Source: Acidobacteriota bacterium
GTDB taxonomy: Bacteria > Acidobacteriota > Terriglobia > Bryobacterales > Bryobacteraceae
Length of the DNA: 64,000 nt
Reading direction: 5' to 3'
Assembly: GCA_017304135.1 (NCBI GenBank)
Contig: JAFLBB010000021.1
Location: forward strand, 1-64,000
Position 1 is the stretch's first letter, and every line of letters begins with the position of its first letter. The notes beneath the pieces were generated by a model. The model saw only the letters and a program-made list of their open reading frames with translations, was not told the DNA's origin and made no database searches. A program made the position numbers and the translations under genes. Of this stretch, positions 47,725 to 64,000 are shown piece by piece.

Positions 47725-49803
47725 CTACAGGCCCGTCTGCGCCGGCAGAATCACCATCGGCGTGCGGTGGAAGGCAAACTTCTTCCCCGCTTTGTCGACC
47801 ACGCTCACCTGGCACAAGTAATCCCCGGGCGGCAGGTTTTCCAGTGGTACCCGCAACTGCACCGGCACCGACAGCGATTTTTCACTGGGCCGCGAATCGA
47901 TCACCACCGCCTCCGATTCCAGCGCCTTCCCCTTGCGGTTGAACAAACTGACGCTCGCTTCCAGATCGAGCGTCTGCGCCGGCGTCGAGCCTGGCTCGTA
48001 GACCTCAAACAGCACAAACAGCTCGCCCCCTTCGCGCACCACCCGCGTCACGCTGGGAATGAGCTTCGCTCCATCGCGCACGAGCGGATTGCCCTTATTC
48101 GACTTGTCCTTCTTGTCCGCCGCCCCGACGCGCTGCTGCAACGGCACGCGCTGCGTGCCCCACACGACGGAACTCGTGCGCAGCCACGCCTGCTCGGCGG
48201 CCAAATCAGGAATGGTGAACTTTGTTTCAAACGTCCCGAGCCGCCCGTTCTCATTCTCGCGGGCCACGAACTTCAAACGGTACTCGCCCGGCGGTAGCGT
48301 GAAGGCCGAGTCATACTGCAGCAGCTTACGGCCAAGCTGCCCCAGGTTCTCCTTGGTCAACTCAATGCGGATGAAATCGCGCACGCTGGCCACGGCACGC
48401 CCGCGCTCATCGCGCACCTCGGCGATGAAGTCGAGCCGTGCCTCTTCGCGCTGCTTCTTACGCACCACGGGAATCACCGAACCGGGGATCTTCACCGCCA
48501 GCGGGACGATGTAGCGGTCCTTGGCGCGACGGAACCAGTTCACCTCAATCGCCATCGGCAGGTCCGTCACCGGGTCTCCCAGTCGCAGCGCCTCTTCCAG
48601 TTGCCGCTCCTTGTCCGTGCTCGAATACTTGTCGAAGGTCTTCGGCGCGTAGTAGCCGGCGCGGTACTCCAGCTTGTACTTCTCCGGCGATTTCAGCTTC
48701 ACCTCGACGCGCCTGAAGCGCCCATCCTCGGCCGGGTTCGACGAATAGTAGCCGAGAATGTAGTAGCTCGCAAACGACTGCTGCGCCTGCACGATGCCGA
48801 GCGACAAGTCGTTGGTGTCGACCATCGCCTTGCCGCCCGTGTCGGCCGCCAGCGTGTCCATCGTCTCCTGCTGCGCGTTCACCCGGTCACGCCGCTGCCG
48901 CTGCGCGCCGCCGCTGAATAATGAGTCGCCGCGAATGTTGCCGACATCGGCGTTGCCCGCCGGAGCCTCCGCTATCAGCCCGCGCGCATCCACCGGATAA
49001 AACGAAACATTGGCCCGCACCGCCGCGTTCACCGTCGAACGCAACTGCGATTCGTTCTCTGATCCCGTGCGGCTCGTGCCCGAGCTGAAGTACACAATCG
49101 CCTTTTTCTCGGGCAGCGAAGCGAGCATGTCCACCGCGTCTTCCAGCGCCCCCAGCTTACGGTCTGTATTGAAGATGTCGAACTCCGAACTGTCGGCCGT
49201 GAACGCCGCGCCTGTGTCCTCGGTCGTCTCATCGGCGGCGGCGCCTTCGGCCAGGTCGCTTGCCTCGCCCAGGCGCATCGACTTGATGGCTGCCAGCAAC
49301 GACTCTTTGTCGTCGGAGAAATCATGCAGGATCTTCAACTGGCTCGAGAACGACATAATCGCCAGCAGATCGCTCGCGTTCATCGACTTCTGGATGTAGT
49401 CCTCAGCCGCCCGCCGCGCGCGGATCTCCTCGGCCACGGCCAGCGCCGAGACATCGAAGTAGAGCACGATCAACCGCCGGTCGCGGTAGCGCAACTCACC
49501 CGGCTTGGAGGCGGAAATCGCCGGCGCCGAGCGCGCCTCCTCTGCTGCCGCAACCGCGGCCGGGGCAGGCGGCGCCTCTGACTCCAACCTTTGATACTCA
49601 AACACCGAGATGCGCTGCGGCTGTTTGCTTTCGAGAACCTCAAAGTCCTCGGCCTTGAGGCCCTCCACCGGTTTGCCGTCGCGGCTCCTCACCTCGACGT
49701 TGACCACGACGAGATTGGTCGTCGTGCGGAAAATGGGCTGCTCCTGCGGCAAGGCGAGCGTGGCGGCGATCAGCAGCACGGCGGTGGGGCGAAGTCGTGG
49801 CAT
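47725..49803 (-). CDS. VWFA-related acidobacterial domain protein
   Basis: A 692-residue secreted protein. After a signal peptide, FRTTTNLVVVNVEVRSRDGKPVEGLKAEDFEV is the typical opening of the VWFA-related family first defined in Acidobacteria. The von Willebrand A domain follows (RRLIVLYFDVSALA with Asp and Ser-containing MIDAS-like stretches), then a C-terminal part with beta-sandwich character. Function is unknown; protein-protein binding in the periplasm or at the surface is expected. The start is 3 nt after the stop of the upstream TonB-type receptor, so the two form an operon. Confidence 0.9.
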   Translation of the reverse strand: MPRLRPTAVLLIAATLALPQEQPIFRTTTNLVVVNVEVRSRDGKPVEGLKAEDFEVLESKQPQRISVFEYQRLESEAPPAPAAVAAAEEARSAPAISASKPGELRYRDRRLIVLYFDVSALAVAEEIRARRAAEDYIQKSMNASDLLAIMSFSSQLKILHDFSDDKESLLAAIKSMRLGEASDLAEGAAADETTEDTGAAFTADSSEFDIFNTDRKLGALEDAVDMLASLPEKKAIVYFSSGTSRTGSENESQLRSTVNAAVRANVSFYPVDARGLIAEAPAGNADVGNIRGDSLFSGGAQRQRRDRVNAQQETMDTLAADTGGKAMVDTNDLSLGIVQAQQSFASYYILGYYSSNPAEDGRFRRVEVKLKSPEKYKLEYRAGYYAPKTFDKYSSTDKERQLEEALRLGDPVTDLPMAIEVNWFRRAKDRYIVPLAVKIPGSVIPVVRKKQREEARLDFIAEVRDERGRAVASVRDFIRIELTKENLGQLGRKLLQYDSAFTLPPGEYRLKFVARENENGRLGTFETKFTIPDLAAEQAWLRTSSVVWGTQRVPLQQRVGAADKKDKSNKGNPLVRDGAKLIPSVTRVVREGGELFVLFEVYEPGSTPAQTLDLEASVSLFNRKGKALESEAVVIDSRPSEKSLSVPVQLRVPLENLPPGDYLCQVSVVDKAGKKFAFHRTPMVILPAQTGL

Positions 49804-49806
49804 GGT

Positions 49807-52800
49807 TTAGAAGCGAAACCTCAGTTCCAGACTGATCCGTCTCATTTGTCCGGCGTTGGTCGCCAGCCCAAAGTTGGCGCTGTTGAGCGTCGTTCCGAAG
49901 TTGGAGATGTTCACCAGGTTGAACACGTTATCGGCCTCGGCGCGAACCTCCAGCGCCCGGCGTTCGCCCGCAATCGGAATGCTGCGGTTGAGCGACGCGT
50001 TCACGACAAACAGATTTGGGCCGGGAATCGTGTTGCGGCCCGCGTTGCCATAGCGGTTCGCGGCCGGCACGGCAAATGCCGCAGTGTTGAAGTAACCCTC
50101 GCCGCCCACCACCGGCAATCCTGTCGAGTCGGCGCGCGCACTGCCCACCACGCCTGAACCACCGGCGTCCGAACGGTTGCCGAGCACGCTCGCCGTCAGC
50201 GGTGTGCCCGAGTTGGCGCGAATCGTCGTCATCAGCGTCCAGTCGCGCAGCAGCACCCCTTTCATGCCCTCGGCCGCGCGCCGTGAGCCTCGGCTATACG
50301 GCGAGGCCAGCACGAAGTTGGCATCCAGCGTGTGCCGCACGTCGAAGCTCGATAGTCCACGCTCGGCGCGCAGGTTGTTGTTGTCCTGCACCACCGTGGT
50401 GCGTCCGCCGCCATACGTCGACACATCGTCGATCGACTTCCCGTATTGATACCGCGCATTGAACGTGAAGCCGCCCCGGAAGCGCCGCGTCAGGCGCACA
50501 TTGCCGGAGTGGAGAATCGAATTGCCGATGGCGCTATCCAGCGTGAAGCCGAGCGCATAGGGAATCGGGCGGCGGTTCTCCGAGTCGGTGGGCGAACCGG
50601 GCGGCGCCTGGTTCGGCAACCGTTGCACATCCAGCCGCGTCCCCTTCGTACCCAGGTAGCCGGCCTCCAACACGAGTGAATGCGGCAGGTTCGTCTGCAC
50701 CGAGAAGTTCCACGTCTGCCCATAGCCCGTCCGGTAGCCGCGGTCCACGGCGAATGTATTTTGGATCAGATTACCCGCCGGCGAGGTCACAAACCCGCTC
50801 CGTATCGTCAGCGGCCGTGCCAGCGTTGTCGTCTGCTGCGTGGTGCTGGCATACGGCGGTTGCTGCGCCAGGCGGCTCGCCAGTTGACTGTAAATGGCCG
50901 CGTTGAAATAGAGCCCGTAGCCGCCGCGCAGCTGCAGCGACCGCTTTGGCAGCGGCTTCCATGCAAAACCGAAACGCGGCGCCACGTTGTTCCGGTCCGG
51001 GTCAATCAGCGCATCGGGAAAGCTGCCGGTGTAAACGCCGCTCGTGCCGGGAGTCACCACCGCCACACCCGCGTAGCCGGAGGCGATGTCGAGATTGGAG
51101 GCGCGCCCGTACTTCTCATACGTCGGGTTGGTGAACTCATAGCGCACCCCGGCGTTGATGCTCAGGTTGGCGTTGACGCGCCAGTCGTCCTGCGTGAACA
51201 GGCTCAGGCTCCAGCCACGAAAGTAGTTGTCGGCGTTCCCGTAGCGGATGTTGGCCGTCTGCGGAAATCCGAGTAAAAAGTCCGCGAAGTCGTAGCCCGT
51301 GTTGTTCAATGGGCTTCCGCTGGCGTCAAACGCGCTCGTCAACAGTCCGCTGAAGGCATACGCCCCGCGCCCGGTCGGCTCGCTGATCTGGTTCGTCAGG
51401 CTGCGGCGGAAGTTGATCCCCGTGGTGAAGTTGTGCTGGCCGCGCGTCAGCGTGATGCCTTCGTTGAGTGCCCACGATTGATCGCTGCGGAAGTTCGGAT
51501 TGCCGTCGTTCAGCGCGCCGAAGTTGGTGAAGCTCAGGTTGGGCGGGCCGAAGGAGAACGGATTGCGTGACGTGCCGGCAATGCCCAGGCTTGCCGCTAC
51601 GTCGTTGCCATAAGCAAAGTAGGGCGTCGTCGTGGAGCGGTTGCGGCTGAAGTCCAGGCGCAGGTTGCTGAGCATCACGGGCGACAGCGTGTGCGTCCAC
51701 CCCAGGTTCACTCTCAGCCCGCGGCCATAGGTTTCGTCGCGGAATCCAAAGAGTTGCAGCGTCTCACCCGTGCGCCGCTGAAATCCCGCACCCAGTGACA
51801 GCCTGTCCTTGCTGCCCAACGGCTGCATGATGCGCACGTCCAGGTTGTCGTTGTTGTTCGGATTCGCGTTCACGATGTTGTAGTTCTGCACGCTCCCCGG
51901 CTGTGTCTCTTGCGGGAAAAACGCCAGCAGGCCGGCGGCGGCTGGATCGATGCGCGATTGCGGCAGCCGCCCATTCGGAAACGGCGTTCCAGAAAGCGGA
52001 TCGAAGATCGTCACTGCGCGGCCGCGCACCCGAGACGAGGTGAAATCGCCTGCCCGCGCCGCAGCCGTTGGCACAATGCCAAACCGGCTCACCGGGTTGT
52101 TGCTGCGTGTGCCGTTGTAGTTGACGAAGAAGATGGTGTCCGGCGCCGAGAACAGCTTCGGGATGCGCAGGGGCCCGCCCAGCCCAATGCCATACCGTGC
52201 GCGCGAATACTCAGGCTTGGCCACCTCCTGGCCGTTAATGGAAAACGCCCGCGCATCGAACGTGGAGTTGTTCAGCGAAAACGTCGCCCGCCCGCGGATC
52301 TGCGCCTGCTGGTTGCGCCGCCGGTTGCCAAACGCCGCCACGCCGCGCTGCCCAAGGAATGCCGGACGGCCCCCCGGCCCTGTGCGCGCCGCACGACGGT
52401 CCACCTTTGCCTCACGGCGCCCACCCGGACCACCGGGACCACCCGGACCGAATCCCCCCGGGCCTCCAAAGCCTGGCCCCCCGGGCCCGCCACCACCACC
52501 CGGACCACCCGCACGCGCCCCCATCGTCCCCGGCGCCTGCGCCTGTCCCAACTGTCCCTGTCCCTCCATCCCACCTGGCCCGCCCGGCATCCCCGCCTCA
52601 CCGAAGCCTGGTGCGCCCGGTCCGCCTGGCCCGCCCGGAGGTCCGAAGCCCGGTCCGAATCCCGGCCCCGGCAGCCCCTCCTCCGCCATACCCAGGCCTT
52701 CGCTCGAACTGCCGCTCACCAAAAACGTCTCCGTCGCCGTGCGCGCAAACTCCGGTTGCTGCGTGGCCGGCACATCGAAGTTCATCTCTGTTTGCGCCGC

Positions 52801-53178
52801 GCCGCCCTCCGGCTCCACGCGGTTCATCTGCATGCGTTGGAACGCTTGCCGATCCTGCCGTACGCGGTTGGCCAGGCTCACGCGGGGCACGGCGATGGTC
52901 AAGGCAAACTCCTGCCCGCCCGCGGCCGGAAGCTGAACCGACTGTGTCAGTGGGTTGAAACCGAACGCACTGACCTCCACGCGCCATTCGCCCTCGGCCA
53001 GGCCGCGCGCCGTGAATCCGCCATCGGAGCGGGAATACACCACCAGCTTCTGTTCGCCCTGGGCCAGCGTCACGGTGGCGCCTGGAATCGGCAGTTGATT
53101 GGACCGCACGAAGCCGCTGAAATCGGCCCCAGGCGCTAGTGCCGCGGCGCCGAGCATGATGAGAATGCGCAAAAGCAT
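49807..53178 (-). CDS. TonB-type outer-membrane receptor with a collagen-like Gly-Pro segment
   Basis: A 1123-residue Oar-like receptor from ATG 53178; an upstream in-frame extension of 65 codons overlaps the divergent DUF4159 gene and its promoter and is rejected. It has a signal peptide, a CarboxypepD-regulatory-like domain (FSGFVRSNQLPIPGATVTL), an unusual Gly/Pro-rich stretch at residues 169-253, a barrel starting around residue 300 (RGRATFSLNNSTFDARAF), and a closing RISLELRFRF signature. The ligand is unknown. It precedes the VWFA gene in one operon. Confidence 0.9.
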   Translation of the reverse strand: MLLRILIMLGAAALAPGADFSGFVRSNQLPIPGATVTLAQGEQKLVVYSRSDGGFTARGLAEGEWRVEVSAFGFNPLTQSVQLPAAGGQEFALTIAVPRVSLANRVRQDRQAFQRMQMNRVEPEGGAAQTEMNFDVPATQQPEFARTATETFLVSGSSSEGLGMAEEGLPGPGFGPGFGPPGGPGGPGAPGFGEAGMPGGPGGMEGQGQLGQAQAPGTMGARAGGPGGGGGPGGPGFGGPGGFGPGGPGGPGGRREAKVDRRAARTGPGGRPAFLGQRGVAAFGNRRRNQQAQIRGRATFSLNNSTFDARAFSINGQEVAKPEYSRARYGIGLGGPLRIPKLFSAPDTIFFVNYNGTRSNNPVSRFGIVPTAAARAGDFTSSRVRGRAVTIFDPLSGTPFPNGRLPQSRIDPAAAGLLAFFPQETQPGSVQNYNIVNANPNNNDNLDVRIMQPLGSKDRLSLGAGFQRRTGETLQLFGFRDETYGRGLRVNLGWTHTLSPVMLSNLRLDFSRNRSTTTPYFAYGNDVAASLGIAGTSRNPFSFGPPNLSFTNFGALNDGNPNFRSDQSWALNEGITLTRGQHNFTTGINFRRSLTNQISEPTGRGAYAFSGLLTSAFDASGSPLNNTGYDFADFLLGFPQTANIRYGNADNYFRGWSLSLFTQDDWRVNANLSINAGVRYEFTNPTYEKYGRASNLDIASGYAGVAVVTPGTSGVYTGSFPDALIDPDRNNVAPRFGFAWKPLPKRSLQLRGGYGLYFNAAIYSQLASRLAQQPPYASTTQQTTTLARPLTIRSGFVTSPAGNLIQNTFAVDRGYRTGYGQTWNFSVQTNLPHSLVLEAGYLGTKGTRLDVQRLPNQAPPGSPTDSENRRPIPYALGFTLDSAIGNSILHSGNVRLTRRFRGGFTFNARYQYGKSIDDVSTYGGGRTTVVQDNNNLRAERGLSSFDVRHTLDANFVLASPYSRGSRRAAEGMKGVLLRDWTLMTTIRANSGTPLTASVLGNRSDAGGSGVVGSARADSTGLPVVGGEGYFNTAAFAVPAANRYGNAGRNTIPGPNLFVVNASLNRSIPIAGERRALEVRAEADNVFNLVNISNFGTTLNSANFGLATNAGQMRRISLELRFRF
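52420..52674 (-). repeat. Gly-Pro-rich low-complexity coding segment
   Basis: Residues 169-253 of the receptor are over half Gly and Pro, with many GGPGGP and GPGFG units, interrupted by a short Gln/Ala-rich piece (GQGQLGQAQAPG). On the plus strand the DNA is strongly C-rich. Collagen-like GxP triplets are irregular, so a flexible spacer between regulatory domain and barrel is the simplest reading. Confidence 0.8.
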
Positions 53179-53238
53179 AAAGTGACGTGTGCCGCCCCTT
53201 GTGTAGACGGGGATGAGCCCCCCGGGTGTTACCCATCC

Positions 53239-53244
53239 TATAAT
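53239..53244 (+). promoter_or_regulatory. -10 box TATAAT close to the DUF4159 start
   Basis: A perfect TATAAT lies 7 nt before the ATG at 53252. It overlaps an in-frame ATG at 53243, which argues for the downstream start. No Shine-Dalgarno follows. Confidence 0.55.
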
Positions 53245-53251
53245 GGCCGCC

Positions 53252-54028
53252 ATGGCTGGCAGACGCGAGGTCGCGGGCGGGCTCGCGCTTCTCTTTGCCT
53301 GCTTTTGGATCGCCAGCGGCCAGCGGCCCCGCGGTGAGGGGGCCGCCGCTCCATCCTCTGAATTCCACTTCATCCGCGCTGAATACCGCGACCTCTATCG
53401 CGCCCGCGGAGGTTTCGGCCGGGGCTGGTGGATGCAGGACTGGCCCGAAGCCGACCACCACTTCACCCTCGGCATCCGCCGCCTCACCCGGCTCGACGTC
53501 GGTGAGCCTCGCCACCTTTCGCTGCTCGACGACCGCCTCTTCGACTACCCCTGGATCTACGCCACCCAAGCCGGCTACTGGAATCTGAGCAACGCTGAAA
53601 CCGCCCGCCTGCGCGAGTACCTGCTCCGCGGCGGCTTCCTCGTCGTCGACGATTTTTACGGGCCGCGGGAGTGGGAGGTCTTTCGCGAGGCCATGCAGCG
53701 CACCCTCGGTGACCAGCCCATCCTCGAACTGGAAATGGACCACCCGCTCATGCACGTCCTCTTCGACATCCACGAGAAAACGCAGATCCCCGGCCTCCGC
53801 CACCTGGGCATCGGCCGTGGCGGCCGCACCTTCGCCCAGGTCCCCGCCGGTCCGCCACATTGGCGCGCGCTGTTCGATGGCCGCGGCCGCCTGATCGTGG
53901 CCGTCAATTTCCAGATGGACGTCGGCGATGCCTGGGAGCACGCCGATCTGCCCGAGTACCCCGCCGAGATGACCGGACTCGCCTATCGCTTCGGCATCAA
54001 CTACATCATCTATGCGATGACGCACTGA
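53252..54028 (+). CDS. DUF4159 protein, exported
   Basis: A 258-residue protein starting MAGRREVAGGLALLFACFWIASGQ, a signal peptide. The DUF4159 region includes FHFIRAEYRDLYRARGGFGRGWWMQDWPEADHHF (read as parts), PWIYATQAGYWNLSNAE, LREYLLRGGFLVVDDFYG and HPLMHVLFDI. In other bacteria DUF4159 stands near MoxR/DUF58/VWA genes; here a VWFA-related gene is one gene away, divergent. The fold is class-I-glutamine-amidotransferase-like by family; function unknown. Its end overlaps the convergent glycosyltransferase gene by 23 bp. Confidence 0.85.
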   Translation: MAGRREVAGGLALLFACFWIASGQRPRGEGAAAPSSEFHFIRAEYRDLYRARGGFGRGWWMQDWPEADHHFTLGIRRLTRLDVGEPRHLSLLDDRLFDYPWIYATQAGYWNLSNAETARLREYLLRGGFLVVDDFYGPREWEVFREAMQRTLGDQPILELEMDHPLMHVLFDIHEKTQIPGLRHLGIGRGGRTFAQVPAGPPHWRALFDGRGRLIVAVNFQMDVGDAWEHADLPEYPAEMTGLAYRFGINYIIYAMTH

Positions 54029-59860: not shown

Positions 59861-59934
59861 GGAATTGGGAAAAGCGTATCACGCCGCACACTGGATGTCC
59901 CGCCTCCAGCCGTCTCGCGCCGACCCCCAGATGT

Positions 59935-60060
59935 CACCCGCCGCCGCCGGCGTCTCCCGCTGCCCCCCCGCCGTCCCCCGCCCCCCCGGAGTCTCCCGCC
60001 GCCCCTCGGCCCTCACCCCCCCAGGTCGTCTCCCAGCCGCCCACCCGTCCTCCTCCCGAC
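59935..60060. repeat. C-rich degenerate tandem tract with G-quadruplex potential
   Basis: About six degenerate units starting GTCTCCC, GTCACCC or GTCCCCC and 18-24 nt long fill the region. Runs of five to seven C occur at 59963-59969, 59975-59979, 59981-59987 and 60016-60022, so the minus strand could form a G-quadruplex. The whole gap 59861-60183 holds no gene. It also contains TTTTCCC (60064-60070) and its complement GGGAAAA (60093-60099) flanking TTGACG at 60076-60081, possibly the -35 of the cytochrome operon, with a poor -10 (AATCAA) 17 nt further. Confidence 0.6.
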
Positions 60061-60183
60061 GGCTTTTCCCGGCTATTGACGGATTCCGTTGTGGGAAAAA
60101 TCAACAAGACCGTGGAGAATGAAAACGTGGGTGATGCGATTGGCCCACTGCGTGCACAACTTCAGCTGAGGTCATAACCGCGG

Positions 60184-61149
60184 ATGTTGAGAAACCTCGT
60201 ACTCATTCTGGGATTCGTACTTACACCACTCGTGGCGCAGGAGGTGGCCAAACCGGCCGCCGAACCCCCGCCAGGCCCTGATGCCAAGCCTACGTATGTC
60301 AATTCGGAGACCTGCCAGGCCTGCCACGAAGACATTTTCAAGGCGTTCGCCAAGAACCCCCACTACCGTTTGGAAACCGACAAGAAGCGGAAGTGGGAGC
60401 AAAAGGCTTGTGAGAGTTGCCACGGTCCTGGGTCAAAACACTCAGAATCGATGGCTGCCACCGATATCATTCAACCCACCAAACTCGCGCCTTCTCAGGC
60501 AGATAAGACTTGCTTAACTTGCCACCGCAATCAGCCCACTCACGTCGGACGTATCGACAGCGGTCACGCCCGCAGCGCCATTGCCTGCACCAGTTGTCAT
60601 AGCGTGCACAAACCGAAGGAGTTGGCTCGCCACGGGCGCAACGCGGCGGTGAACCAGCAGTGCACCTCCTGCCACGTGAACACGCTCGCCAGCTTCCAGA
60701 AGCCGCACGCCCACCCGCTGTCGACGCTGTCTTCGGCGGGCAACAATGCCATGTCCTGCCTGGACTGCCATAACCCGCACGGCTCGGCCCCCAAGGCGAA
60801 CCTGAAGTTTGCCTCGGCCAATGAGCCGGGCTGCCTGAAGTGCCACTCCGACAAGCGCGGTCCGTTCGCCTTTGAGCATGCGCCCATGCGCACCGAAGGC
60901 TGCTCGTCCTGCCACGAGCCGCATGGCTCGACCAACCCCCGCATGCTGACGCGCCCCGAGGTGCGCCTGCAGTGCCTGGAGTGCCACTCCAACATCGCCA
61001 CGCAGCAGGCCACCGGCGCCGCCGCCGGAGGCACGCTCGGCGGCATCCCGCCGGCCTTCCATGACATCCGCAGCCCGCGCTACGCCAACTGCACCAGTTG
61101 CCATATGAAGATCCACGGCTCGCACGTCAACCGGGCCTTCCTCAGGTAA
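60184..61149 (+). CDS. Decaheme c-type cytochrome, MtrA/DmsE-like
   Basis: A 321-residue periplasmic cytochrome. A signal peptide (MLRNLVLILGFVLTPLVAQ) and a Pro/Ala-rich linker are followed by ten CxxCH haem sites (CQACH, CESCH, CLTCH, CTSCH, CTSCH, CLDCH, CLKCH, CSSCH, CLECH, CTSCH). Ten haems in about 320 residues match MtrA/PioA/DmsE proteins, which insert into an outer-membrane barrel and move electrons across it. The barrel gene is next, 11 nt downstream. A single ATG in this frame opens the signal peptide; GAGGT lies upstream. Confidence 0.92.
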   Translation: MLRNLVLILGFVLTPLVAQEVAKPAAEPPPGPDAKPTYVNSETCQACHEDIFKAFAKNPHYRLETDKKRKWEQKACESCHGPGSKHSESMAATDIIQPTKLAPSQADKTCLTCHRNQPTHVGRIDSGHARSAIACTSCHSVHKPKELARHGRNAAVNQQCTSCHVNTLASFQKPHAHPLSTLSSAGNNAMSCLDCHNPHGSAPKANLKFASANEPGCLKCHSDKRGPFAFEHAPMRTEGCSSCHEPHGSTNPRMLTRPEVRLQCLECHSNIATQQATGAAAGGTLGGIPPAFHDIRSPRYANCTSCHMKIHGSHVNRAFLR

Positions 61150-61160
61150 AGGAGAACACG

Positions 61161-63224
61161 ATGAGAACCCTACCTATCCTCATGCTGAGTGCTCTCCTGG
61201 GTGGCGCCCTGTGGGCGCAGGAGGCGGCCAAACCGGCCGAAACCAAACCGGAAGAAGCCAAGACCGAGGCGCAGGCTGCTCCCGCCGCCGAAGAATCTCC
61301 CGCCCCGGTCGCGGAAAAGCCCTTCACCGCCACCATCGATGCCGGCGCCCGGTACATCTCCGGGGTCGCCGGTGACCTCCGCACCTACCGCAGCGTCGTC
61401 AACCTCGGCGAAGGCGCCAAGCTGTTCGGCTTTGAAGCCAACTACCTCAACCCCGAGGCCAAGATGCTCAACGGCTTCTCGGTGTCGGCACGCAACTGGG
61501 GCGGCGATCCTTTTTCAACCCTCCGCCTGACGGCGGAAAACACCAAGTGGTGGCGCCTCTCGGCCGACTACCGCTCGATGCTCTATTACAACTTCCTCCC
61601 TTCGTTCGCCAATCCGCGCCTCCGCCAGCCCGGACAGACCGCGGCCTCCCCCGGCCCCGACCTCTTCCTCAACCAGCGCGGCTTTGACCAGCGCCGTAAA
61701 ACCACCGACGTCGATCTCGAACTGCTTCCCGGCCGCCGCATCATCCCCTATCTGGGCTTCTCGCGGAATTCAGGCGACGGCACCGGCGTCACGCCGTTCG
61801 TCGCCGCCGGCAACGAGTATCCCGTCTCCACCCTGCTCAGCGACGAGGCCAATACCTACCGCGGCGGCGTGCGGTTCGAATACGACCGTTTCCACCTCAC
61901 CCTCGAACAGGGCGGCATCACCTATAAGGACGACCAGTCGGTGTTCACACGCGACCGCAACCTCGGCAACCGCACCACCACCGCCTTCGGCCAGACGCTC
62001 TTCCTGGCCGACCTCAACCAGGCCTATGGCGTGCGCGGCGACAGCATCTACTCGAAAGCGATGGCCACCGGTTCGCCCTTCCACTGGCTGCACGCCTTCG
62101 GCCAGTTCCTCTACAGCCGGCCCAAGACCGACGTGACCTACACCGACAACGCCCGCGGGCTGTTCGTGCTGGGCGCGACGCGCTTCTTCAACACTGGCCA
62201 GTCCCTCCTCGATTCAGCCGCCAACCAGCCGCACAGCTCGGCCTCCGGCGGCGCCGAGATCCAGGTGGGCCGCTTCCGCCTCGTGAACAGCTTCTTCACC
62301 GACCGTTTCCACAACGCCTCTTCGGCCCTGCTCACCGAGACGCTCTTCTTTACGCCCACGCTCAGCGAGTCTTCCACCGCCTTTACCGCCGACCGCCTCG
62401 TGGTGAACAATCACCGCTACCAGGTGGACGGCTTCTTTGACGCCACGCGCAAGCTCACCTTCCGCGGCGGCTACCGCCATGTGTGGGGCGACGCCGCCGT
62501 CCGCGCCGGCCGGGTGAATCCGTTCGGTCCGTCCGAACTGGGCGAACTGAAGCAAAACGTCGGCATCGCCGGCATCAACTTCCGTCCCCTGTCGGGCTCC
62601 TCCTGGAACGCCGAATACGAACGCGCCTCGGCTGACCAGGTCTACTTCCGCACCAGCCTGTCCAACTACCATCGCCTGCGCGTGCGCGGCCGCCAGCAAC
62701 TGCATTCGACCCTGCAGTTGGGCTTCAATTACTACCTGCTGGACAACCGCAACCCGCATGCCGCCGACAGCTTCCGCGCCGCCACCCAATGGAAGTCCTC
62801 CTCCCAGGCGGCCAGCCTGGCCTTGCAATGGACGCCCAAGGCCGGCAAATTCGGATCCCTCATCGGCGAGTACACCCACTCCAAGCTGCGCAGCGACTTC
62901 CAGTACCTGGCGCCACAGATCCTCAGCGCCGAAAAGTCGCTCTACACCGAATACGGCCACACGGCCACGGCATTGCTCGACCTGGCCGCGCCCAAGAGCT
63001 GGCTGGTGGGCGGGCCGCACGTGCAGTTGGGCGGCTCCTTTTACATCGGCTCCGGAAGCCGGCCCACGAATTTCTATCAGCCCATCGTCGGGCTTCGGCT
63101 GCCCTTCCATTCCCGGGTGGAGTGGTACGCCGATTGGCGCTACTATGGGTTCTCGCAACCCACGTATCTTTACGAAGCGTTCCGCACCCACACCGTGGTG
63201 AGCGGGTTGAGAATCGGATTGTAG
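61161..63224 (+). CDS. MtrB/PioB-like outer-membrane beta-barrel
   Basis: A 687-residue protein behind AAAGGAG, with a signal peptide ending at LWAQ, a Lys/Glu/Ala/Pro linker and a barrel of alternating strands rich in Tyr, Phe and Arg, ending VVSGLRIGL. Size and linkage match the MtrB/PioB porin family that sheathes the decaheme cytochrome. No cysteine is present, so the N-terminal CxxC of Shewanella MtrB is absent, as in several distant members. Together with the previous gene it should form a trans-outer-membrane electron conduit. Confidence 0.85.
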   Translation: MRTLPILMLSALLGGALWAQEAAKPAETKPEEAKTEAQAAPAAEESPAPVAEKPFTATIDAGARYISGVAGDLRTYRSVVNLGEGAKLFGFEANYLNPEAKMLNGFSVSARNWGGDPFSTLRLTAENTKWWRLSADYRSMLYYNFLPSFANPRLRQPGQTAASPGPDLFLNQRGFDQRRKTTDVDLELLPGRRIIPYLGFSRNSGDGTGVTPFVAAGNEYPVSTLLSDEANTYRGGVRFEYDRFHLTLEQGGITYKDDQSVFTRDRNLGNRTTTAFGQTLFLADLNQAYGVRGDSIYSKAMATGSPFHWLHAFGQFLYSRPKTDVTYTDNARGLFVLGATRFFNTGQSLLDSAANQPHSSASGGAEIQVGRFRLVNSFFTDRFHNASSALLTETLFFTPTLSESSTAFTADRLVVNNHRYQVDGFFDATRKLTFRGGYRHVWGDAAVRAGRVNPFGPSELGELKQNVGIAGINFRPLSGSSWNAEYERASADQVYFRTSLSNYHRLRVRGRQQLHSTLQLGFNYYLLDNRNPHAADSFRAATQWKSSSQAASLALQWTPKAGKFGSLIGEYTHSKLRSDFQYLAPQILSAEKSLYTEYGHTATALLDLAAPKSWLVGGPHVQLGGSFYIGSGSRPTNFYQPIVGLRLPFHSRVEWYADWRYYGFSQPTYLYEAFRTHTVVSGLRIGL

Positions 63225-63233
63225 GAGAGGGCG

Positions 63234-64000
63234 ATGAGATCGGTCACAATCGGCTGTATCGGTGTTCTCCTGGGCGCGGCCATGGCGATGGCCGCGGTTC
63301 CCGGCGACGCGCAGCGCGGCGAACAGGTGCTGCGCGAGCAGAAGTGCCTCACCTGCCACACCGTGGGTGGCGGCAAAGGGTCGGCGCCCGACCTGGGCCG
63401 CCGCGGTTCGCGCGCCTACACACCCTCCCACATGGTTTCGCTCATGTGGAACCATGCGCCGCAAATGTGGCGGGCCATGGAATCGGCCGGCCTTGGCCGT
63501 CCCGAACTGAGCGTGCAACAGTCGGCCGACCTGTTCGCTTATTTCTACTCCCTGCGCTACTTCGAGGCGCCCGGCGACGGCGGCCGCGGCAAGGCCGTCT
63601 TCCAGGCCAAACAGTGCGCCGGATGCCACGCCTTGGGCAACGAAGCCGCCAAACAGGGACCGCCCGTTGACGCCTGGCCCGCCGTGGAGAACCCCGTCGA
63701 GCTGGCCCGCGCCATGTGGAACCACGCCCCACAGATGCTGCCCAAAATGAAGGCCAGCGGCATTGCCTGGCCCTCCATGTCCGGCGCCGAAATGACCGAC
63801 CTGACCGTCTACCTCTCTTCGTTCAGCCGCACCCGTGGCAAAGCACCCGCCTTCGCCGCCGCGCCCGCCGAAGACGGCAAATCGGTGTTCGACAATCGCG
63901 GCTGCGCCGGCTGCCACCATGGCAAGCTCGACCTCACCACCGGCCTGCAGGCGCAGAAACGCACGCTCGCCAGCTTCTCGGCCGGCATGTGGAACCACGC
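63234..64000 (+). CDS. Tandem-domain cytochrome c, 3' end outside the window
   Basis: The frame is open from ATG 63234 (behind GGAGAGG, 9 nt after the barrel gene) to the window edge, 255 residues. A signal peptide (MRSVTIGCIGVLLGAAMAMA) is followed by at least three class-I-like cytochrome domains of about 90 residues, with CLTCH, CAGCH and CAGCH haem sites. Each domain repeats MWNHAPQM or MWNHA, which probably supplies the distal Met. It may bring or remove electrons on either side of the porin-cytochrome complex. Confidence 0.88.
   Translation, partial: MRSVTIGCIGVLLGAAMAMAAVPGDAQRGEQVLREQKCLTCHTVGGGKGSAPDLGRRGSRAYTPSHMVSLMWNHAPQMWRAMESAGLGRPELSVQQSADLFAYFYSLRYFEAPGDGGRGKAVFQAKQCAGCHALGNEAAKQGPPVDAWPAVENPVELARAMWNHAPQMLPKMKASGIAWPSMSGAEMTDLTVYLSSFSRTRGKAPAFAAAPAEDGKSVFDNRGCAGCHHGKLDLTTGLQAQKRTLASFSAGMWNH

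Follow-up and report, generated by a model that had tools for sequence, protein, structure and literature searches.

The 64,000-nucleotide window analysed here, the first part of contig JAFLBB010000021.1 from an acidobacterium of the family Bryobacteraceae, ends inside a run of genes for an MtrA-type decahaem cytochrome, an MtrB-type barrel and a third cytochrome. Bryobacteraceae are common soil acidobacteria. We consider it likely that these genes are the mtrAB part of the family's MtrCAB extracellular respiration system and that they lie in a single six-gene operon, A to F, that is probably reductive and switched by sigma54. Computation recovered the gene content, the protein families, the barrel fold, a separately located mtrC, nested positions in two gene trees and conserved promoter sites. 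The first-pass annotation of the window had proposed a porin-cytochrome electron conduit; its interpretation is partly supported, being right in substance and incomplete.

An mtrAB operon with an inner-membrane module

The gene mtrA (gene A, 60184-61149, + strand) encodes a decahaem cytochrome of 321 residues, assigned to the periplasm or outer membrane. As the first-pass annotation had stated, the protein is a ten-haem MtrA/DmsE-like cytochrome: it contains exactly ten CxxCH motifs, against a mean of 0.09 and a maximum of 3 in 2000 shuffled proteins, and 24 histidines are available for the ten haems. It scored 232.7 bits against TIGR03508, the DmsE-family decahaem model (cut-off 192.2), and a sequence search of the PDB matched it to the MtrA chain of the Shewanella Mtr complex, 6r2q_A, at 8e-36. 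The molecule name given for 6r2q_A is 'Cystathionine beta-synthase', evidently a mislabel since the fold search described below names 6r2q as the Mtr complex. Directly before mtrA is a proline-rich open stretch (59900-60178) in one frame, ending in ...DGFSRLLTDSVVGKINKTVENENVGDAIGPLRAQLQLRS, with no clear start codon.

Separated from mtrA by 11 nt, mtrB (gene B, 61161-63224, + strand) encodes an outer-membrane β-barrel protein of 687 residues that, as previously described, contains no cysteine. Sequence searches with this protein against Pfam, NCBIfam and the PDB returned zero matches, and a comparison of folds was therefore needed. An AlphaFold2 model built with 28 homologues has about 26-27 strands and a pLDDT of 84.3. 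Searching the PDB with this model using Foldseek returned MtrB, 6r2q_B, as the top match (E 1.6e-13, TM 0.63/0.67); the other PDB matches listed, nearly all TonB-dependent receptors, had TM values of 0.46 or less. Judged by its predicted fold, gene B is an MtrB-type wide barrel. A barrel of the wrong kind, one of the outcomes that had been named as overturning the conduit, did not occur, and together with the MtrA matches this result supports the conduit.

Gene C begins 9 nt after mtrB (63234-64334 on the contig, + strand; the window edge at 64000 cuts the gene), such that the three genes lie within 20 nt of each other as first noted. Its product is a periplasmic tetrahaem cytochrome of 366 residues, made up of four tandem class-I c domains; it has four CxxCH motifs and four MWNHA-like repeats, the repeated domains that had been noticed earlier.

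The first-pass annotation had advised reading past position 64000 for further haem proteins. On the 72,428-bp contig the operon continues for 3.7 kb more, to contig position 67709, with three additional genes on the same strand. Gene D (64391-64594, + strand) encodes a monohaem protein of 67 residues that carries a signal peptide. Gene E (64625-66340, + strand) encodes a CbcL/MtrH/MtoC-like protein with nine CX2CH motifs at residues 41-270, followed by a b561/FdnI-type membrane domain (Ni_hydr_CYTB at 55.8 bits and an FdnI-type match at 348-530); its hydropathy profile displays an N-terminal signal or anchor and five helices, the criterion for the family being six. Gene F (about 66312-67709, + strand) encodes an ImcH/NapC-like protein with three transmembrane regions, a Cytochrom_NNT match of 34.2 bits, an NrfH-like part and six haem motifs, five CX2CH and one CX3CH. 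PDB searches with the products of genes C and E returned generic haem-protein matches and nothing more specific. The published architecture of the CbcL/MtrH/MtoC proteins is nine CX2CH motifs and a HydC/FdnI-like membrane domain, and that of ImcH is three helices with NapC/NirT-like haems (PMC6295460). The names CbcL and ImcH, as applied here to the predicted products of E and F, denote a match in architecture to these descriptions and not orthology.

Opposite-strand genes flank genes A to F at both ends, and we therefore regard the six as one operon. These flanking genes are of the DUF1552 and DUF1501/PSD1 types, named by inspection. There is no molybdopterin or other reductase gene in the operon or among its neighbours, and none of genes A to F encodes a high-potential iron-sulphur protein (HiPIP). 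The same operon is present in both other members of the genus, and the identity of A, B and E ranges from 78 to 83%. Gene D belongs to a conserved family of 67-90 residue monohaem proteins, each with a signal peptide, a K-rich stretch and one CxxCH motif, that accompanies the CbcL-ImcH module (L002:4391-4594, which is gene D, and members at L042, L043, L044, L045, L047, L052 and L056). Neither gene D nor the family matched a Pfam or NCBIfam model above cut-off.

Surveying 37 Bryobacteraceae genomes revealed an orthologous barrel in 31 and a strong gene-E homologue in 22, and all 22 genomes with a strong gene E also have the barrel (hypergeometric P 0.002). Outside the genus, gene F adjoins mtrCAB at L046, L083, L085, L191, L194, L198 and L199. 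The notion that some relatives carry an E-F pair without mtrAB was rejected, as the barrel is present in those genomes and is merely unlinked. Outside the genus, E-F pairs also have other haem-rich neighbours: a ten-haem relative of gene A and a 702-residue open reading frame at L059:2722-10087, and a 980-residue protein with 19 CxxCH motifs at L052:3212-6154.

In the MtrCAB survey of Baker et al. (2022, PMC8805035), the Group 5 Acidobacteriia had no gene for a putative quinone oxidoreductase of the inner membrane in the vicinity of mtrCAB, which left open the source of the electrons. The operon and the family data would supply a candidate for this enzyme. Taken together, the gene content of the operon, its retention within the genus and the co-occurrence seen in the family's genomes make the E-F module a concrete, testable candidate for the inner-membrane partner.

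Elsewhere in the window, 49807-53373 on the - strand encodes an outer-membrane protein that resembles TonB receptors and has, close to the N-terminus, a long insertion rich in Gly and Pro.

MtrC on a separate contig

The first-pass annotation had seen no MtrC-type cytochrome before the window edge. This is true inside the window; two OmcA/MtrC-family genes are, however, present on other contigs. They were found with a profile of MtrC-like proteins adjoining mtrA elsewhere in the phylum, which was run on the window's own genome and gave two full-length matches, on contigs 58 (C58) and 202 (C202). Both match the OmcA/MtrC family model TIGR03507 of NCBIfam, at 504 and 454 bits, respectively (cut-off 209). 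The C58 gene encodes a decahaem protein and is located directly downstream of two regulatory genes, one for a PAS histidine kinase and one for a sigma54-dependent response regulator, an arrangement that is also present in both other genomes of the genus. The C202 gene (L169:1931-3934) is a lone second decahaem member with no linked regulator.

In all three members of the genus (G000, G297 and G298) mtrC is on a different contig from mtrAB. In most Bryobacteraceae relatives mtrC is immediately upstream of mtrA, and gene C is often immediately downstream of mtrB. The clustering of mtrC with mtrAB applied by Baker et al. (2022) is thus absent from the genus and present in most of its relatives. 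Such clustering is a criterion for gene-cluster searches rather than a functional requirement, and searches requiring contiguous mtrCAB can overlook complete-looking systems.

A quick maximum-likelihood tree of MtrA with 125 rows placed the genus within a Bryobacteraceae clade of mostly mtrC-linked genes, with support of 98-99. The unlinked MtrC of the genus is likewise nested, with support of 96, among family MtrCs whose genes adjoin mtrA. Because the genus nests inside mtrC-linked relatives in both trees, mtrC appears to have split off from mtrAB in this lineage, and the simple reading of the sequences is that it was relocated away from mtrAB. Pairs of a PSD1-like gene (two CxxCH motifs) and a DUF1501-type gene flank both the mtrC locus (L168:6953-11422) and the A-F operon (L002:7787-11832). 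We offer only as a suggestion that these pairs served as recombination sites when mtrC moved; alternatively, their position may be due to chance, the genome being rich in such pairs.

The genome also contains a second mtrAB pair without mtrC (L178:7487-10419; contig C157, about 49,486-52,418). The second MtrA has ten haems, scores 271.6 bits against TIGR03508, is paired with a barrel and falls in a separate MtrC-less Bryobacterales MtrA clade. A cluster on contig C20 (L172:5-8825) encodes a Rieske protein, a cytochrome b, a cytochrome with seven haems and a large NarG-like molybdopterin oxidoreductase.

Predicted sigma54 sites before mtrA and mtrC

A predicted sigma54 (-24/-12) site, TGGCCCACTGCGTGCA, is located at 60141..60156 on the + strand, and the start codon of mtrA follows 27 nt later. 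In all three species the sequence TGGCC-N5-CGTGCW precedes the start of mtrA, by 27 nt, and that of mtrC, by 27-29 nt, and three-way alignments of the upstream regions revealed the sigma54 element and the ribosome-binding site as the main conserved blocks. The background frequency of TGGC-N8-TGCW in the fetched DNA of the genome is 0.0067 per 100 strand-bases. A genome-wide count of TGGCC-N5-CGTGCW is uninformative on its own (28 sites, and 19 for the reversed control), and it is therefore the position and conservation of the sites that carry the evidence. There is no such site before the C202 mtrC, before genes D or E in the window's genus, or before the second mtrA. The proline-rich stretch upstream of mtrA encloses the site at 60141..60156 and is itself not kept across the genus.

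An RpoN gene is present on contig C35 (192.7 bits). In all of the NtrC-type regulators the textbook GAFTGA loop reads GAFTDA; their predicted activity through sigma54 is for this reason likely but unproven. In Geobacter, RpoN has been linked with the genes of cytochromes that serve extracellular electron transfer (PMC2725144).

Across the family, TGG[CTA]-N8-TGC[AT] was found in the 350 bases around 17 of 26 mtrC starts, compared with 3.9% of shuffled sequences and with 4 of 58 internal starts, those of mtrA, mtrB and gene C (Fisher 4e-8; this and the following P values are optimistic, as related genomes are counted as independent and the motif was sharpened after the first sites had been seen). 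Omitting the window's genus leaves 14 of 23 (Fisher 8e-7). In 12 relatives, a regulator related to the one next to mtrC adjoins the D-E-F module, and the region between this regulator and gene E has a sigma54 site on the gene-E strand in 11 of the 12 (P about 4e-6). The primary site in those 11 loci always ends in ATTGC[AT].

Since the operon and the unlinked mtrC are preceded by the same kind of putative sigma54 promoter, they are probably switched on together. We infer which regulator acts on which promoter, and regard sigma54 together with the two-component system as a candidate switch that would turn extracellular respiration on. A broader picture is possible, although we hold it only tentatively and would not call it probable. 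Acidobacterial MtrCAB may belong to a sigma54 regulon that extends across the family, of which it would form the outer half and the monohaem-CbcL-ImcH module the inner. The two halves would have been fused in this genus into an envelope-spanning operon, mtrC would have become detached and set beside the sensor kinase and regulator, with sensing and surface contact thereby encoded together, and MtrAB might be capped by alternative MtrCs.

Electron flow and relation to known systems

We infer the electron path, its direction and its substrate as follows. Menaquinol would be oxidised in the inner membrane by one or both of two proteins: the product of gene E, of CbcL/MtrH/MtoC type, in which a b-type membrane domain bears nine c haems, and that of gene F, of ImcH type, with three transmembrane helices and NapC/NirT-type haems. 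Electrons would then cross the periplasm via cytochrome C with its four haems, the small protein D with its single haem, or both, and pass through MtrA inside the MtrB barrel, across the outer membrane, to surface MtrC and an acceptor that is solid or bulky, Fe(III) for example.

The first-pass annotation had left extracellular electron transfer, iron oxidation and a solid electron acceptor side by side. Extracellular transfer remains the likely function, and a solid acceptor being reduced is more probable than iron being oxidised. We think it unlikely that electrons flow inward, in a Mto/Pio-like uptake whose donor is Fe(II) or some other source outside the cell, gene C acting as an MtoD-like high-potential carrier and gene E as an MtoC-like quinone reductase. 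In Fe(II) oxidisers mtoA, mtoB and mtoD cluster with the gene for MtoC, a homologue of CbcL (PMC6295460), proteins of the CbcL/MtoC kind are known to work in either direction, gene C is built from class-I c domains, and the genome has four haem-copper oxidase subunit I genes, all of which would suit such uptake. Outward flow is favoured by the failure to find RuBisCO in the genome, a pointer to heterotrophy, by the Fe(III)-reducing Paludibaculum in the same order (PMC8407742) and by the ImcH-type protein, a kind whose reported occurrence was confined to Fe(III) reducers (PMC6295460). Moreover, MtrC is present in the genome, and Mto and Pio systems have none. A Mto/Pio-like system lacking MtrC was considered and rejected once the profile of phylum homologues had found the two OmcA/MtrC-family genes on other contigs; the operon also has no gene for a HiPIP such as PioC, and the partner is tetrahaem, unlike the monohaem MtoD.

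It is more doubtful still that the operon acts independently of the remote MtrC, with the two mtrC genes serving otherwise, and forms a conduit, DmsEF-like or of another kind, that feeds either an extracellular reductase of its own or a soluble acceptor of small size. Such a role would agree with mtrC being unlinked in all three members of the genus, with MtrA falling in a model named for the DmsE family (TIGR03508) and with the second mtrAB pair that has no mtrC. However, no molybdopterin or other reductase gene lies in or beside the operon, both MtrA and MtrC sit in their trees among members with adjacent mtrC and mtrA, and the shared sigma54 site and its spacing tie the two loci together.

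Several observations weigh against a reductive MtrCAB system with a CbcL/ImcH-like partner. The class-I c domains of gene C, probably with His/Met ligation, suggest a periplasmic carrier of higher potential than in Geobacter, and thus also fit Fe(II) oxidation. The names CbcL and ImcH were assigned from architecture and domain matches, and gene F has five CX2CH motifs and one CX3CH, whereas ImcH has seven CX2CH and its homologues 6-10 motifs. Nine genomes of the family have the barrel without a strong gene E. The N-terminal signal of the genus MtrC (the C58 protein) has no lipobox cysteine, which leaves its anchoring at the surface unproven. Finally, the assembly is a draft of 353 contigs, and separate contigs set no true distance between the loci.

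Porin-cytochrome conduits in acidobacteria and MtrCAB in Bryobacterales have been published (PMC7399161, PMC5900883, PMC8805035), and acidobacterial extracellular electron transfer itself is not new (PMC8805035, PMC7399161, PMC8407742). As far as the searched literature shows, which held few subscription papers and no preprints, three features are new: the inner-membrane module, an mtrC split from mtrAB and a sigma54 signature shared between loci; the word 'sigma' is absent from the main text of Baker et al. 2022 (PMC8805035).

Among the closest known systems are those of Group 5 (Bryobacterales/Acidobacteriia; Baker et al. 2022, PMC8805035), in all of which mtrB is followed by a gene for a tetrahaem cytochrome of the periplasm. 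The system described here resembles them in its decahaem MtrA, its MtrB barrel, its MtrC family and the tetrahaem cytochrome immediately after mtrB, gene C having the position and haem number of their 'c-cyt group 5'. It differs in having mtrC on another contig, two putative inner-membrane quinone oxidoreductases in the operon, and sigma54 sites. With Shewanella MtrCAB (6r2q) it shares MtrA (8e-36), a barrel model that best fits MtrB, which has 26 strands in Shewanella, and an OmcA/MtrC-family MtrC; its inner-membrane partner is, however, CbcL/ImcH-like and not CymA, its carriers are of class-I c type and its mtrC lies apart. The MtoABCD and Rhodoferax MtrH clusters (PMC6295460) similarly place genes for an mtrAB-type conduit, a CbcL-type protein and a periplasmic cytochrome c in one cluster, but here the class-I carrier is tetrahaem rather than monohaem, there is an additional ImcH-like protein, and MtrC is encoded in the genome. 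In DmsEF systems dmsA and dmsB are adjacent, whereas DUF1552- and DUF1501/PSD1-type genes flank this operon. Like CbcL and ImcH of Geobacter, genes E and F encode nine CX2CH motifs with an FdnI-type domain and three transmembrane helices with NapC/NirT-type haems, respectively; unlike them, they are adjacent in one operon and linked to MtrAB, and gene F has six motifs, one of which is CX3CH.

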